64,000 nucleotides of DNA from Flavobacteriaceae bacterium (GTDB lineage: Bacteria; Bacteroidota; Bacteroidia; Flavobacteriales; Flavobacteriaceae), in contig JAFMLQ010000004.1 of NCBI GenBank assembly GCA_017852075.1, forward strand, positions 1 to 64,000, written 5' to 3'. Positions 29,794 through 37,430 of this stretch are shown here, in pieces (within the stretch, counting starts at the first letter, position 1; each line of letters begins with the position of its first letter). The notes beneath the pieces were generated by a model. The model worked only from the letters and a program-made list of their open reading frames with translations. It was not told where the DNA came from and did no database searches. The position numbers and the translations under genes are program-made.

Positions 29794-29797
29794 ATAA

Positions 29798-29826
29798 TTG
29801 CTATTTAATTTTTTTGAATATATTTG
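29798..29826 (+). promoter_or_regulatory. Promoter of the histidine operon
   Basis: TTG at 29798-29800 and TATATTTG at 29819-29826 are 18 nt apart, the best match in the window to the Bacteroidota consensus TTG-(17 to 23)-TAnnTTTG. The leader peptide ATG follows 8 nt after the box. Confidence 0.7.
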
Positions 29827-29834
29827 CAACTCAA

Positions 29835-29891
29835 ATGAAAACAACAACACTACATAGACATCATAGTACGACTCGATCAAACGAGATGTAG
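29835..29891 (+). CDS. His operon leader peptide
   Basis: An 18-codon ORF, ATG to TAG, encoding MKTTTLHRHHSTTRSNEM. Three of 18 residues are His, with codons at 29853-55, 29859-61 and 29862-64. It lies just after the his promoter and just before a rho-independent terminator upstream of hisG, as in classical amino acid attenuation. When His-tRNA is scarce the ribosome should stall at these His codons and leave the segment TCAAACG (29877-29883) free. That segment pairs perfectly with CGTTTGA (29920-29926) in the terminator. A ribosome at the stop codon would instead cover it. The peptide itself is probably unstable and has no other role. Confidence 0.85.
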   Translation: MKTTTLHRHHSTTRSNEM

Positions 29892-29946
29892 TAAGATTTC
29901 TATGTATCTATTACAAGCCCGTTTGAGTAATCAGACGGGTTTTTTT
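29877..29946 (+). terminator. His operon transcription attenuator
   Basis: The terminator has arms CCCGTTTGA (29918-29926) and TCAGACGGG (29931-29939), a 9-bp stem with one G-U pair, a 4-nt loop GTAA and a run of seven T (29940-29946), 11 nt before hisG. The competing antiterminator is TCAAACG (29877-29883) in the leader coding region, a 7-nt perfect complement of the terminator's 5' arm. A small hairpin CTCG/CGAG (29872-29875 with 29882-29885) could shield it. Only the pairing is read from sequence; ribosome position and termination efficiency are inferred. Confidence 0.83.
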
Positions 29947-29957
29947 ATTAAAAAAAT

Positions 29958-30809
29958 ATGGTACGTATTGCAATTCAAAAATCAGGGCGACTCAATGAAG
30001 ATTCATTGAACTTACTCAAAAGCTGTGGAATTTCTATCGACAACGGTAAAGACCAGCTCAAGGCTGCTGCTAGAAACTTCCCTATGGAGGTATTCTACCT
30101 TCGCAATGGCGACATTCCCCAATACATGAGAGATGGGGTTGTAGATTTAGCCATTTTAGGGGAGAATTTACTCGTTGAAAAAGGGGAAGACCTTAAGGTT
30201 ATAGAGCAATTGGGTTTTTCTAAATGCAGGGTTTCAATAGCAGTCCCTAAAAATATTGCTTTTCAGGGATTACAAGATTTGGAGGGTAAGCGAATCGCGA
30301 CCTCTTACCCGAATACAGTAAATCGCTTTTTAGATGCAAATCAAATCAAAGCAGATCTTCACATCATTAACGGATCAGTTGAAATCGCACCCAATATTGG
30401 ATTGGCGGACGCTATTTGCGACATAGTTTCTAGTGGGAGTACCCTTTTTAAAAACAATTTAAAAGAAGTTGTTGAAATTTCACGTTCAGAGGCCGTACTG
30501 GTTCAAGCACCTTCAGTTTCAGACGCTGCTGCTGCAACTATTGATAAACTTCGTTTCCGTATCCAATCTGTTTTACGCGCCAAACAATCAAAATACATTT
30601 TACTCAACGCTCCTAATGATAAAATCGACGCTATCAGTTCTATTTTACCCGTCTTAAAAAGTCCTACAGTCTTGCCTTTGGCACAAGAAGGCTGGAGTTC
30701 TTTACATTCAGTCATCAACGCTGGAGATTTTTGGGAGGTTATTGATCAACTTAAAGCTGCTGGAGCAGAAGATATACTGGTATGTCCTATAGAAAAAATG
30801 GTCTTATGA
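29958..30809 (+). CDS. hisG: ATP phosphoribosyltransferase (long form)
   Basis: A 283-residue enzyme that starts histidine synthesis by joining ATP and PRPP. It has the HisG core (about 1-205), with MVRIAIQKSGRLNEDS at the start and ADAICDIVSSGSTLF near 152-166, and an extra C-terminal ACT-like domain (about 210-283) that allows feedback inhibition by histidine. The long form works alone, and no hisZ is present. It is first in the operon, 11 nt after the attenuator T-run, and overlaps hisD by 4 bp (ATGA). Confidence 0.97.
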   Translation: MVRIAIQKSGRLNEDSLNLLKSCGISIDNGKDQLKAAARNFPMEVFYLRNGDIPQYMRDGVVDLAILGENLLVEKGEDLKVIEQLGFSKCRVSIAVPKNIAFQGLQDLEGKRIATSYPNTVNRFLDANQIKADLHIINGSVEIAPNIGLADAICDIVSSGSTLFKNNLKEVVEISRSEAVLVQAPSVSDAAAATIDKLRFRIQSVLRAKQSKYILLNAPNDKIDAISSILPVLKSPTVLPLAQEGWSSLHSVINAGDFWEVIDQLKAAGAEDILVCPIEKMVL

Positions 30810-32101
30810 TGCAACACTATTTAAATCCATCCCAATCAGAATGGGATTCTCTGACTGAAAGGCCCACAGCCAGTTACGACTCTTTAGAACCTTTGGTTGC
30901 AACTGTTTTTGATGCGGTAAAAGCGGATGGAGATCAAGCGCTTAAAAAGTATACCGCTGAATTTGACGGAATACAACTCTCAGACTTTAGAGTAAGTGAA
31001 GAAGAGCTTAAATTGGCCGCGTCAGCAGTACCTCTAGCATTAAAGAAAGCCATACAAAACGCAAAGGAGAATATCGAACGTTTCCACGAGGCACAAAAGA
31101 CTGAAACGGTCAAAGTAAGCACTCAAGCTGGGGTGGACTGTTGGCAAGAAAAAAAGCCAATCGAAAAGGTAGGCTTGTATATACCAGGAGGATCAGCACC
31201 TTTATTTTCTACGGTGTTGATGTTAGCCATTCCCGCTCAAATCGCAGGATGTAAGGAAATAGTTCTCTGTTCGCCTCCCACTAAAGAGGGTACTTTACCC
31301 GCAGTTGTTCTCTATACCGCTCAGCTTTGTGGCGTAAAAAACATTTATAAAGTAGGAGGAATACAGGCTGTAGCAGCCATGGCAGTGGGAACAGCAAGTA
31401 TTTCAAAAGTTCATAAGATTTTTGGACCAGGAAATCAATATGTTACTGCAGCCAAACAATGGGCAACACGTCATCATGTGGCAATCGATATGCCCGCAGG
31501 TCCAAGCGAACTATTGGTAGTTGCTGATGCTACTGCCGATCCCAATTTTATCGCTGCAGATCTGCTTTCCCAGGCCGAACACGGTCAAGACAGTCAGGTG
31601 TTGTTTGTCAGCACTTACAAACCCTTACTAGATCAAGTCGCTGAAGCGATAAAAGCCCAGCTAGTTGAGCTGCCTCGTAAAGAAATTGCCCTAGCAGCTT
31701 TAAAGAATTCTAAAGCCATCTTTTTTGAAACAGATCAGGCTGCCATAGATTTTATCAATGCCTACGGCCCTGAACACTATATCATTTGTGTAGAAAAAGA
31801 GGAGCTTTATTTGGATCAGCTAATCAATGCAGGCTCAGTCTTTGTTGGAAACTACACTCCAGAATCAGCAGGTGATTACGCCTCGGGGACGAATCACACC
31901 TTGCCGACCAATGGATATGCAAAACAGTATAGCGGTGTTAACTTAGACAGCTTTAGAAAGGCAATTAGCTTTCAAAAGATTTCTAAGGAAGGCATACAGG
32001 CTTTAGGGGAAACCATAGAGTTGATGGCTGCAGCTGAGGGATTAGATGCCCATAAAAATGCAGTAAGCATACGTTTAAAAGCCTTGAAGGATGAAATTTG
32101 A
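30806..32101 (+). CDS. hisD: Histidinol dehydrogenase
   Basis: A 431-residue zinc enzyme that oxidises histidinol to histidine in the last two steps. It contains GLYIPGGSAPLFSTVLMLAI near 115-135, GPGNQYVTAAKQ near 210-221, GPSEL near 233-237, and the catalytic GPEHYII near 321, then NYTPESAGDYASGTNH near 350-365. I set the start at 30806, in an ATGA overlap with the hisG stop; a second ATG follows at 30809. The longer frame from 30782 would overlap hisG by 28 bp with no family match. It overlaps hisC by 11 bp. Confidence 0.96.
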   Translation: MMQHYLNPSQSEWDSLTERPTASYDSLEPLVATVFDAVKADGDQALKKYTAEFDGIQLSDFRVSEEELKLAASAVPLALKKAIQNAKENIERFHEAQKTETVKVSTQAGVDCWQEKKPIEKVGLYIPGGSAPLFSTVLMLAIPAQIAGCKEIVLCSPPTKEGTLPAVVLYTAQLCGVKNIYKVGGIQAVAAMAVGTASISKVHKIFGPGNQYVTAAKQWATRHHVAIDMPAGPSELLVVADATADPNFIAADLLSQAEHGQDSQVLFVSTYKPLLDQVAEAIKAQLVELPRKEIALAALKNSKAIFFETDQAAIDFINAYGPEHYIICVEKEELYLDQLINAGSVFVGNYTPESAGDYASGTNHTLPTNGYAKQYSGVNLDSFRKAISFQKISKEGIQALGETIELMAAAEGLDAHKNAVSIRLKALKDEI

Positions 32102-33137
32102 TTATAAAAAATACATCAGAACGCATTTACTCTCTTTGACACCATACCAATCTGCAAGAGAGGAGTTTACAGCTGACGGTAGAGAAATGATTTTATTGGA
32201 TGCAAATGAAAATCCCTTTGCTACTGAAGTAAATCGGTATCCAGACCCGCTCCAATTAGAACTCAAAGAACAGATTGCTGAATGGAAAGGAGTAGGGGTA
32301 GACCAGCTCTATTTAAGCAATGGCAGTGATGAGTTTATCTCAAATGTCATCATGGGGTGCTGTGAGCCGGGCCAAGATCAAATTGTCATTGTACCTCCCA
32401 CTTTTGGCATGTACAAAGTTTCGTCGAGAACGCATGGGGTAGGCGTTGTCGAGGTTCCACTTACAGATGCATTCCAGCTTGACGTGCCTGCTATTCTAAA
32501 AGTAGTTGATGCATCTTGTAAAATTATTTTTATTCCTACACCAAACAATCCTACAGCAAATAGTTTTGATTTGAATACCATCAAAGAATTGCTAGAGAAT
32601 TTTCAGGGTTTAGTCCTTGTGGACGAGGCTTATGTTGAATTCAGCACCAATCCTTCAATCATCCCTTGGTTAGAAGACTACCCAAATCTTATGGTTAGTC
32701 AAACCTTTTCTAAGGCACAAGGTATGGCTGGAGCACGTTTGGGAATGGCTTTTGCTCACTCTGATTTTATTCGCTTTTTCAATCGTATAAAAGCACCTTA
32801 CAATATTAACACACTGACCATAAACGCTGCATTAAACCGACTAAAAGAGCAAGATAAGGTTGGAGAACAAGTACAATTACTACTCGATGAACGCCATCGA
32901 TTAGAGGGAGCTTTTGGTAGTATTCCTTTTATTAAGCAGTGTTTTCCCTCAGATGCAAATTTTATATTGATACGGGTTGACGATAGCAGTTTGCGTTATC
33001 AGCAATTGATCGACTGTGGTATAGTGGTTCGCAATCCTTCTAAGAATCTAAATTGTGAAAATACCCTTCGTATTTCAGTAGGACTCCCAGAAGAAAACAA
33101 CCGTTTAATCGATGCCCTAAAAAGTTTGAGTATATGA
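32091..33137 (+). CDS. hisC: Histidinol-phosphate aminotransferase
   Basis: A 348-residue PLP-dependent class I/II aminotransferase for the imidazole acetol phosphate step. [19 protein letters not shown] near 34-52, the NPNNPTAN-like TPNNPTAN near 148-155, DEAYVEF near 178-184 and the PLP Lys in [16 protein letters not shown] near 203-218 are clear. It overlaps hisD by 11 bp and hisB by 4 bp. Confidence 0.95.
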
Positions 33138-34261
33138 AAAACGTATTATTTATAGATCGCGATGGTACCTTGGCTTTAGAGCCGGAGGGATATCAGTTGG
33201 ATACTTTTGAAAAGTTGGTCTTTTATCCAGAGGTATTTACTTATTTAGCCAAAATTGCTAAGGAGCTGGACTTTGAATTGGTAATGGTAACTAATCAGGA
33301 CGGGCTGGGTACAGCTTCGTTTCCTGAAGAGACTTTTTGGCCTGTGCAGGATTTTTTAATTCAGTCTTTTAAAAACGAAGGAGTACAATTTAACGAGATA
33401 CTGATAGATAAAAGTTTACCCGCCGATAATGCTCCTACACGCAAACCTCGAACGGCTATGATGAATCACTATTTGGATAAGGCTGATTATGACCTGAAAA
33501 ATTCATTTGTGATCGGGGATCGACTAACCGATATGGAGCTTGCAAAAAATTTAGGCAGTCAAGGTATTTTTATTGCCAATGATCCGGAACTCGGACAAGA
33601 TGAGACTACCGCAAATGCTGATCTGCCTATAGTTCTGACAACCACCTCTTGGAAAGACATCTACGCTTTTTTAAAATTAGAGCAGCGTCAGGTTGACTAT
33701 GAGCGCAAGACCAACGAGACGGATATCAAACTCAAACTGAATCTCGATGGTACTGGGAAAAGCAGTATAGATACCGGTATTGCCTTTTTTGATCATATGT
33801 TGGATCAATTGGCACGTCACGGGAGTATGGATATTGAGTTTGAGGTAAAAGGCGATTTGGAAGTGGATGAACACCACACCATTGAAGACACTGCCATTGC
33901 CTTAGGGGAAGCCTTTGCTCAAGCTTTGGGGAATAAATTAGGTATAGAACGTTACGGTTTTTGTCTGCCCATGGATGATTGTCTGGCGCAAGTAGCTATA
34001 GATTTTGGAGGCCGGAATTGGCTGGTTTGGGAAACTGAATTCAAAAGAGAGATGATTGGTAAAATGCCTACAGAAATGTTTTTCCACTTTTTTAAATCCT
34101 TTTCAGACGGGGCCAAGGCGAATATCAACATCAAAGCTGAAGGAACAAATGAACACCATAAGATTGAAGCTATTTTTAAAGCCTTTGCAAAGGCAATTAA
34201 GGTGGCTGTTAAGCGCGATCCCGATAAAATGATTTTACCCTCAACAAAAGGAAGTCTCTAA
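33134..34261 (+). CDS. hisB: Bifunctional histidinol-phosphatase / imidazoleglycerol-phosphate dehydratase
   Basis: A 375-residue fusion like that of enteric bacteria. The N-terminal HAD phosphatase (about 1-165) has [10 protein letters not shown] with the Asp8/Asp10 pair and [16 protein letters not shown] near 132-147. The C-terminal IGP dehydratase (about 180-375) has [11 protein letters not shown] near 220-230, [16 protein letters not shown] near 244-259, and [11 protein letters not shown] near 316-326. It supplies two of the pathway's steps in one protein. The next gene, hisH, begins directly after its stop. Confidence 0.96.
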
Positions 34262-34840
34262 ATGCTAGCCATTATCGATTACGGAGCGGGGAATACCAAA
34301 AGCCTGCAATTTGCATTGGAACGATTGGGAGTAAACAGTTTATTGACTTCTGATGCTGATCAAATCAATTCTGCAGACAAAGTTATTTTTCCGGGGCAAG
34401 GGGCTGCTGGAAGTGCCATGCAAAAACTGAAACACTTCGGTTTAGATCAATTGATTCCTAAACTGCAACAACCGGTCTTGGGGATTTGTTTGGGCATGCA
34501 ACTCTTTTGTGAACATACTGAGGAAGGTGATGTTCAAGGGCTTGGAATTGTAAAAGGAACAGTCAAACGTTTTTCTACTGAGGTAAAAGTCCCTCAAATG
34601 GGCTGGAACAGTATTCACAACCTAAAAGGGGAATTGTTTGAGGGGATAACCGATGGGGCTTATATGTATTTGGTGCACTCCTATTTTGTTCCAAACAGTA
34701 CAGAGACAGTGGCGAATGCAAATTACGACGGCAGCTATAGCGTAGCATTGCAAAAGGATAACTTTTATGGAGTGCAGTTTCACCCCGAAAAAAGCAGTAA
34801 GGCAGGCAGTCGTTTACTTCAAAACTTTTTAGCATTATGA
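34262..34840 (+). CDS. hisH: Imidazole glycerol phosphate synthase glutaminase subunit
   Basis: A 192-residue class I glutaminase that feeds ammonia to HisF. The catalytic triad is complete: Cys76 in GICLGMQL, His174 and Glu176 in QFHPEKSS. The hinge QMGWNSIH near 116-123 is intact. It starts at the base after the hisB stop and overlaps hisA by 4 bp. Confidence 0.96.
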
Positions 34841-35562
34841 GAATCATCCCCGCCATAGATATCATAGAGGGAAAGTGTGTTCGCCTAACCAAAGGCGATT
34901 ACAGCACACAAAAAACCTACAATGAAAACCCTTTGGAAGTTGCAAAAGCCTTTGAAGCGCATGGTATTGCACATTTACATCTTGTAGATCTAGACGGAGC
35001 GAAATCCAAACATATCGTAAACCACAAAGTTTTGGAGAACCTAGCTAGCAAGACCCAATTAAAAATAGACTTTGGAGGAGGCCTTAAATCAGATGAGGAT
35101 TTGCGTATTGCATTCGAATGTGGAGCGCAACAAATTACGGGAGGAAGTATTGCAGTTAAATCCCCAGAGACATTTACTTCATGGATTCAATCCTATGGAG
35201 CTGATAAAATCATTTTAGGAGCCGATGTTAAAGGGATTCATATCGCTACAGACGGCTGGTTGGAAACTTCAGATAAAACACTTTTTGACTTTGTGGACTA
35301 CTACAAAACTCAAGGAATAAGCTATGTTATCTGTACTGACATCAGTAAAGATGGTATGTTAGAGGGGCCTGCTTTTGAGTTGTACCAAAGTCTACTCGAA
35401 CAAGTAAAAGTCAAACTTATTGCTTCAGGTGGGATTTCCAAATTTGAAGAGCTTCCGCAACTGCAAGAATTGGGTTGCGAAGGAGTGATTATCGGTAAAG
35501 CGATTTATGAAAATCGGATTTCGCTTAAAGCTTTGGAACACTTTATTATCAATTCAAACTAA
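34837..35562 (+). CDS. hisA: ProFAR isomerase (HisA)
   Basis: A 241-residue (beta-alpha)8 barrel that isomerises ProFAR to [24 protein letters not shown] near 3-21 includes the catalytic Asp8, and the second catalytic Asp is in CTDISKDGM near 165-173; [10 protein letters not shown] near 193-202 binds phosphate. The TAATG junction with the next gene (1-base overlap) shows it is translationally coupled to the DinB gene. Confidence 0.95.
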
Positions 35563-36071
35563 TGGAAAATCAGGTTCTTTCGGAATTTAAAAAGCACGCC
35601 ATCTTTCGACTAAACGAAAGCCAACGGATGATTCACCTTGCCCTTGCCAAAGTAAATGAAGAGCAACTGTGGCAACTTCCTGTAAGCAATGGCCTCCGTT
35701 TAGGAAATCAACTGTTACACCTCTGTGGTAATATGACCCAGTATCTTATTGCTTCCTTGGGAGAAAAAACCGATGAGCGGAAACGGGATGAAGAATTTAC
35801 TGCAGCAGGAGGAGCAGATATCCGTACGTTGTTGACTCTTTTTGACAATACGGTAAAACAGGCTATAAATACCATAGAAGAGGCGCCAGAGTCTGCCTTT
35901 ATTCGGATACGAAAAGTACAAGATTTTGAATTTTCTGGAGTGGGAGTGGTACTGCATGCTGTAGAACACTGTTCCTATCATACAGGACAGATTGCCTTTT
36001 GGGTAAAACAGCTTACCGCAGCAGATTTAGGATTTTATGACCAACATGACTTAAACCGATTAAACGAATAA
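35562..36071 (+). CDS. DinB superfamily protein inside the his operon
   Basis: A 169-residue four-helix-bundle protein of the DinB/YfiT-like type. Three metal-ligand His positions typical of the family can be seen: His49 in LLHLCGNM, then His131 and His135 in [12 protein letters not shown]. Proteins of this fold often bind a metal and include thiol-dependent transferases, but the role of this one is unknown. It starts in a 1-base TAATG overlap with hisA and lies 1 bp before hisF. This tight placement between two sequential enzymes argues that it is expressed with the pathway. It is not a known histidine enzyme, and all pathway steps are already covered by the other genes. Confidence 0.83.
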
Positions 36072-36072
36072 G

Positions 36073-36837
36073 ATGCTTAGCAAACGTATCATTCCTTGTT
36101 TAGACATTAAAGACGGGAGAACCGTTAAGGGAATCAACTTTATCAATCTACGCGATGCAGGTGACCCAGTCGAATTGGCTACCCAATACGCCTTGGAGCA
36201 GGCAGACGAATTGGTTTTTTTAGATATTTCTGCTACAGAGCAAAAACGCAAAACACTGGCAGATCTGGTCTTAAAAGTTGCCGCAGCTATAGACATTCCT
36301 TTTACAGTAGGGGGTGGAATCCGGTCAGTTGAGGATGTTTCTATTTTGCTAAAAAATGGAGCAGATAAGGTTTCGATCAATTCAGCAGCAGTTAAAAATC
36401 CAAGCCTTATCAATAAACTTTCGGAGCAGTTCGGTTCCCAATGTATTGTAGTAGCTATAGATGCCAAGCAAATTGACGGTCAGTGGAAAGTGCATTTGGT
36501 AGGAGGTAAGGTGCCCACCGAATTGGACCTGTTTGATTGGGCAAAGGAAGTTGAACAACGCGGAGCAGGAGAAATCCTTTTTACTTCTATGGACCACGAC
36601 GGTACCAAACAAGGCTTTGCCAACAACGCACTGGCTCGATTGAGTACTGAGGTCAATATACCCATCATTGCTTCAGGAGGAGCGGGTACTGTCCCTCATT
36701 TTATTGATACATTTACAAAGGGTAAAGCAGATGCTGCCTTGGCAGCCAGTGTGTTTCACTTTGGTGAAATCTCCATACCCGAACTCAAAAAACAACTGAA
36801 CCAACAGCAACTAGCTGTGCGAATAGACGAATTATGA
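36073..36837 (+). CDS. hisF: Imidazole glycerol phosphate synthase cyclase subunit
   Basis: A 254-residue (beta-alpha)8 barrel that uses HisH-derived ammonia to make IGP and AICAR. It has [19 protein letters not shown] near 5-23, with the catalytic Asp11, [11 protein letters not shown] near 80-90, and the second Asp in [12 protein letters not shown] near 174-185 followed by IASGGAG near 202. It overlaps hisIE by 4 bp. Confidence 0.97.
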
Positions 36838-37430
36838 AACCAGACTTTTCAAAATCACCCGATCAGCTTATCCCTGCCGTCATACAGGATGCAAAAACAC
36901 AAAAAGTTTTGATGCTGGGCTATATGAATGAAGCAGCCTTTGAAGCAACTCAAAAAAGCCAAAAGGTGACCTTTTACAGCCGCTCAAAACAACGCCTTTG
37001 GACCAAAGGAGAGGAGAGTGGGAACTTTTTAAACGTGGATTCCATTCATTTAGATTGTGACCAGGACGGTTTGCTTATTTACGCAAATCCAGAGGGTCCA
37101 ACCTGTCACAAGGGAACGGATACTTGCTGGGGGGAACAAAATGTAAACTCACTGGCCTTTATAGCAGAATTGGAAGCCATTATCGCTCAGCGAAAGGCAG
37201 CAGACGATCAAAACAGCTATGTGGCTTCTTTGTTTAGAGAGGGCATCAATAAAATCGCTCAAAAAGTAGGTGAGGAAGCTGTAGAGACTGTGATTGAGGC
37301 CAAAGACAACAACGATCAGTTGTTTTTAGAGGAAAGTGCCGACCTCTTGTTTCACTACCTCGTATTACTTCAAGCCAAAGGGTTTAAATTGAACGATATC
37401 GCCCGGACCTTGTCGTCACGAAACGGTTAA
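36834..37430 (+). CDS. hisIE: Bifunctional phosphoribosyl-AMP cyclohydrolase / phosphoribosyl-ATP pyrophosphatase
   Basis: A 198-residue fusion for steps two and three of the pathway. The HisI half (1 to about 110) has [20 protein letters not shown] near 23-42, the zinc-binding DCDQDGLL near 73-80 and CHKGTDTCW near 91-99. The HisE half (about 115-198) has [14 protein letters not shown] near 147-160 with the metal-binding Glu residues. It is the last his gene; no clear rho-independent terminator follows. Confidence 0.96.

Follow-up and report, generated by a model that had tools for sequence, protein, structure and literature searches.

The DNA between the SPFH/Band 7 gene and hisG very probably controls the his operon by ribosome-mediated transcription attenuation. 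It lies in a window of 64,000 nucleotides, the whole stretch of DNA analyzed, from a Flavobacteriaceae bacterium, and it lies in the gap between the stop of the Band 7 gene (29793) and the start of hisG (29958). The promoter, the 18-codon leader peptide with three His codons, the terminator and the antiterminator that a first-pass annotation had placed in this gap were recovered base for base (Table 1). The antiterminator sequence TCAAACG is the exact reverse complement of CGTTTGA (29920-29926) inside the terminator 5' arm, and it falls at the leader codons that had been annotated. This anatomy is conserved in relatives, where both helices covary. The his operon that follows looks complete, with the order hisG-D-C-B-H-A-(DinB/DUF1572-like)-F-IE. 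The DinB/DUF1572-like ORF (35562-36071) is situated inside the operon, between hisA and hisF.

Table 1. Features of the his leader region and operon, with positions in the window.
Feature	Position	Strand	Basis
Possible -33 element TTG, weak	29798-29800	+	Sequence alone
-7 promoter element TATATTTG	29819-29826	+	Sequence; fits Bacteroidetes sigma-A consensus TAHHTTTG
Leader peptide ORF MKTTTLHRHHSTTRSNEM, 18 codons, ATG 29835, stop TAG 29889-29891	29835-29891	+	Sequence; kept in relatives
Regulatory His codons 7, 9, 10	29853-29855, 29859-29861, 29862-29864	+	Sequence
Protector hairpin (1:2), His codons in 5' arm, antiterminator enclosed	29851-29906	+	Fold
Antiterminator 5' arm TCAAACG	29877-29883	+	Leader codons 15-17; pairing kept in 72 sequences
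Antiterminator inner extension, 29887-29897 pairs with 29906-29915	29887-29915	+	Fold with upstream RNA removed, representing a ribosome stalled at His
Intrinsic terminator, stem 29915-29926 / 29931-29942, T-run 29940-29946	29915-29946	+	Fold; conservation
hisG, first gene of the operon	29958-30809	+	Pfam HisG and HisG_C
hisD, hisC, hisB, hisH, hisA, DinB/DUF1572-like ORF, hisF, hisIE	30782-37430	+	ORFs and Pfam; hisIE by sequence reading

The -7 box occupies positions -12 to -5 relative to the transcription start in F. psychrophilum (PMC9723704) and F. johnsoniae (PMC6847099). Therefore, transcription in the window is predicted to start at 29830-29831. The -33 elements of F. johnsoniae are poorly defined (PMC6847099). 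The leader is separated from the Band 7 gene by 41 nt (29794-29834) that contain no terminator, and transcripts reading through from upstream would therefore also meet the his attenuator.

From this anatomy we infer the start site, the ribosome stalling and the dependence on histidine. The RNA would start about 4 nt ahead of the leader ATG, and the leader peptide would be translated from a nearly leaderless RNA. When charged His-tRNA is short, the ribosome would stall at His codon 7, 9 or 10 and occupy the 5' arm of the protector hairpin, which would free TCAAACG. The freed sequence could pair with CGTTTGA before the terminator 3' arm is made, and RNA polymerase would read into hisG. When His-tRNA is plentiful, the ribosome would reach the stop codon and cover TCAAACG, and the terminator would form. 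An untranslated leader would terminate too, with TCAAACG hidden by the protector hairpin.

The RNA from 29831 to 29957 has a fold of -38.6 kcal/mol compared to a shuffle mean of -15.5 (z -7.4), and none of 200 shuffles was as good. The terminator has 12 pairs and a loop of 4, followed by seven T. When the leaders were folded without the terminator, the antiterminator was enclosed by at least 5 pairs in 115/116 Flavobacteriales leaders, and the His codons were part of the protector hairpin 5' arm in 110 of the 116. Stalling was simulated by removing the RNA covered by the ribosome, for which a footprint of 15 nt ahead of the A-site codon was assumed. In RNA extending up to the terminator loop, the antiterminator probability was 0.00 without a ribosome and rose to 0.89-0.98 when a stall was placed at any one of the His codons 7, 9 and 10. 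A ribosome simulated at the stop codon covers the antiterminator arm and makes the antiterminator impossible. These simulated positions support the earlier proposal that a stall at the His codons may free the antiterminator and that a ribosome at the stop may cover it. Within the genus the antiterminator starts at a median of 15 nt past the last His codon and 13 nt ahead of the stop. In the equilibrium fold of the full leader, the terminator is favored over the antiterminator for every simulated ribosome position. Since the terminator wins at equilibrium once its 3' arm is made, the switch must be kinetic and decided during transcription.

The terminator hairpin of the window ends just 15 nt ahead of the hisG ATG, which would also suit translational control, in which the hairpin (29915-29942) would mask the start of hisG until the antiterminator opened it. 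However, an unbroken T-run of 6-9 follows the hairpin in 34/34 genus members. The spacing between the hairpin and hisG also varies: it ranges from 13 to 44 nt within the genus and reaches 64 nt within the family, which is too far to cover the hisG start. Hiding of the hisG start was rejected based on the T-run and the variable spacing, and translational control is very unlikely to explain the element.

Conservation of the attenuator was assessed with the hisG loci of 33 other genomes of the genus and the window, 80 loci from relatives that are either named or uncultured, and a Bacteroidota search in which 325 of 392 genomes had hisG and 90 loci were retrieved. The antiterminators that the script picked in L019, L021, L038 and L039 were left out as evidence because they lay near the T-run or went with a wrong inner ORF start. 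A short, usually His-rich ORF and a terminator precede hisG in 34/34 genus-level sequences and in 82 further Flavobacteriaceae-level ones. An ORF that starts with ATG and contains three or more His codons occurs upstream of hisG in 30/31 distinct genus sequences, compared to 0.32 expected from dinucleotide shuffles. The corresponding counts are 70/84 for family-level sequences (1.80 expected), 11/11 for other families of the order (0.16 expected) and 38/65 for more distant sequences (3.40 expected). The isolates carrying a His leader include Kordia, Galbibacter, Arenibacter, Maribacter, Flagellimonas, Tamlana and Spongiivirga. The first-pass annotation had named conserved His codons and compensatory changes in the helices as checks, and every check that sequence allows turned out in favor of its reading. 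The His codons are kept in the genus and family, and the TCAAACG/CGTTTGA pairing and the terminator are kept there with matched changes.

In 72 aligned leaders the terminator stem is paired in 99.7% of cells, compared to 17-59% when one partner is slid by 1-3 columns, and three of its pairs have changed on both sides. The antiterminator helix is paired in 98.6% of cells (9.5-56% in the slid controls) and also shows changes on both sides. The terminator 5' arm CCCGTTTGA is common to both helices and nearly frozen, as expected since one strand must pair with two partners. Both partners of this arm drift separately by A-to-G changes that keep the pair with U. The rare changes of the shared arm are matched by both partners (L113, L036, L169, L172); in L113 the antiterminator is ACAAACG, the shared arm CCCGTTTGT and the 3' arm ACAAACGGG. 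The frame of the antiterminator reads Ser-Asn-Glu in the genus of the window and Gln-Ala-Arg in Maribacter and its kin; therefore, selection is on the RNA and not on the peptide.

The mutual exclusion of the two helices had been called unlikely by chance. For the window sequence alone this is only marginally so: the antiterminator match has p about 0.065 with the terminator fixed and the spacer shuffled, and an ordinary terminator that happens to be complementary to part of a short ORF would fit too. The claim is secured by comparison, since the element is conserved throughout the 34 genus members and in most of the family and shows covariation, which refutes chance and leaves it a negligible probability. 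Comparison, not the single sequence, is decisive for the predicted antiterminator pairing. A search for pairing of the TCAAACG/CGTTTGA type elsewhere in the genome gave one other match, which was no better than the reversed-pattern control.

Besides attenuating in cis, the leader might have an additional function in trans, carried out by the terminated RNA or by the His peptide. Two points speak for this: the strong conservation of both the antiterminator and the terminator arms, and the precedent of rnTrpL/peTrpL in Sinorhizobium meliloti, a leaderless attenuator RNA that works in trans (PMC7298713). However, the dual pairing already explains the conservation, and the C-terminal half of the peptide shifts in frame and composition between clades. 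An added role in trans is unlikely.

In distant Bacteroidota the parts of the attenuator occur in the same order with unrelated complementary pairs, such as GGTAAGCC/GGCTTACC and GCGCCGG/CCGGCGC. The automatic terminator/antiterminator finder fails in some distant lineages (e.g. L129-L134, L176-L180), and therefore the structure counts at the phylum level are lower bounds. These failures also make the phylum-level antiterminator test weak (median z 1.29). In four distant Bacteroidota (L129, L131, L140, L144) the His leader is longer and contains around ten His codons, e.g. MKELLLHIHHLSGDVHHAHRGHHHIHVH. The terminator of these long leaders was missed by the simple finder, and they may work differently.

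The highly structured leader could also point to direct sensing of histidine or tRNA by a T-box or riboswitch, or to an RNA-binding protein, in which case the short ORF would be incidental. Against this, no Rfam family reached the gathering score in the window and the loci of 20 relatives, except for an unrelated tRNA. The conserved features are the His codons and the pairing, and the pair sequences are wholly different between lineages, unlike a binding pocket. Direct sensing is therefore extremely improbable, and the attenuator remains the preferred reading. The T-box covariance model had no match in the window, the 400-nt region or the 20 relatives' loci. The Rfam His_leader model (RF00514) had no match at gathering in the window, nor up to E 10 in the 400-nt region. 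Other Rfam matches up to E 10 (e.g. PyrR, L10 leader) were dismissed as chance-level hits resting on the terminator hairpin.

The predicted 5' UTR of the his leader is nearly absent. All 34 genus sequences have an exact TAHHTTTG box ahead of the leader ATG, at a distance of 5-8 nt from the leader start; two members were scored at 14 nt because the script picked an inner ATG. The distance is 4-8 nt in 21/24 near relatives and is bimodal in other Flavobacteriaceae (7-8, or 17 and more). With a start 4-5 nt past the box, the predicted 5' UTR is 4-5 nt in the window and about 1-5 nt in the genus. In five near relatives (L068, L070, L079, L080, L082) the His leader ORF starts with GTG at or beside the predicted transcription start, which would make the GTG start a truly leaderless one. 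Leaderless mRNAs account for 5.5% in F. psychrophilum (PMC9723704), and in F. johnsoniae 87% have leaders of more than 10 nt (PMC6847099). Against these figures, a conserved leader peptide that is predicted to be nearly leaderless stands out.

A broader reading, to which we give slightly less than an even chance, is that the Bacteroidota his attenuators form a phylum-wide family that arose anew or was rewritten several times, using complementary sequences that are unrelated to one another. The marine flavobacterial clade would then be obligately leaderless, with the ribosome loading on the 5'-terminal start codon upon its emergence. If true, 5'-terminal loading would explain how the ribosome keeps step with the polymerase in a phylum without Shine-Dalgarno sequences.

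The same genome also has a leader upstream of trpE (L227, G000:C22, - strand, at about 1333 in the reverse complement) that encodes the peptide MNRTIIFFNWWHEDLH with tandem Trp codons. The -7 box of this leader is 5 nt ahead of the ATG, and the terminator is AGGCTTGTCATCACGACAAGCCTTTTTT. The trpE leader is conserved in five congeners (L228, L229, L231, L232, L234) and appears to be a similar attenuator, built like that of the his operon. No leader peptides were found before ilvD and the aspartokinase gene of this genome using the same promoter rule.

Leader-peptide transcription attenuation is a textbook mechanism, usually taught from Proteobacteria. Candidate attenuators in Bacteroidetes/Chlorobi were reportedly mentioned by Vitreschak et al. 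in 2004. A 2010 survey listed leader-peptide systems from Proteobacteria, Actinobacteria and, newly at that time, Firmicutes, and a survey of his genes in the superphylum of the bacterium studied here described attenuation for enterobacteria only (PMC8305728). The 2021 F. psychrophilum transcriptome paper reports a conserved 5' element without an Rfam family upstream of hisG in Flavobacteriaceae, as well as strong clues for leader-peptide attenuation ahead of amino-acid operons (PMC9723704). The kind of attenuation and a conserved hisG 5' element in Flavobacteriaceae are thus already known. The main text of that paper gives neither a structure nor a peptide for hisG, and the organism of the window is a marine relative of MS024-2A / Cand. 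Arcticimaribacter. Sequence comparison here adds the anatomy of all three hairpins, their occurrence over the phylum and the nearly leaderless layout predicted for the whole genus. Three points go beyond the first-pass annotation: the protector hairpin, the very short 5' UTR that is predicted, and the earlier report from Flavobacteriaceae.

The element resembles hisL of E. coli and Salmonella (RF00514) in having a short leader ORF (18 aa in both; E. coli: PMC3896937) with His codons directly before the operon, and a terminator and mutually exclusive antiterminator with the same logic. Unlike E. coli hisL, which has seven His codons in a row (PMC3896937), the leader peptide has just three, in a run broken by one Arg codon, which counts against the attenuator reading. 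The Bacteroidetes -7 promoter and the predicted near-lack of a 5' UTR also set it apart from the enterobacterial leaders. The His leaders of Firmicutes (Bacillus cereus group, Peptostreptococcaceae, Erysipelotrichales; PMC9413887) likewise combine a leader peptide with three to five His codons, a terminator and an antiterminator, and they too are unmatched by RF00514. These leaders, compared by description, belong to another phylum and have their His codons in a row. In S. meliloti rnTrpL/peTrpL the leader ORF also starts at the RNA 5' end (PMC7298713); however, that system concerns Trp in Alphaproteobacteria and is experimental, while here it is His and the start is predicted from the -7 box.

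In much of Bacteroidota, the his operon appears to be commonly controlled by leader-peptide attenuation, for which there is no Rfam model. A covariance model for the Bacteroidota His leader would annotate many genomes. The nearly leaderless form, as predicted here, would allow the coupling of transcription and translation to be tested cleanly in bacteria that lack Shine-Dalgarno sequences.
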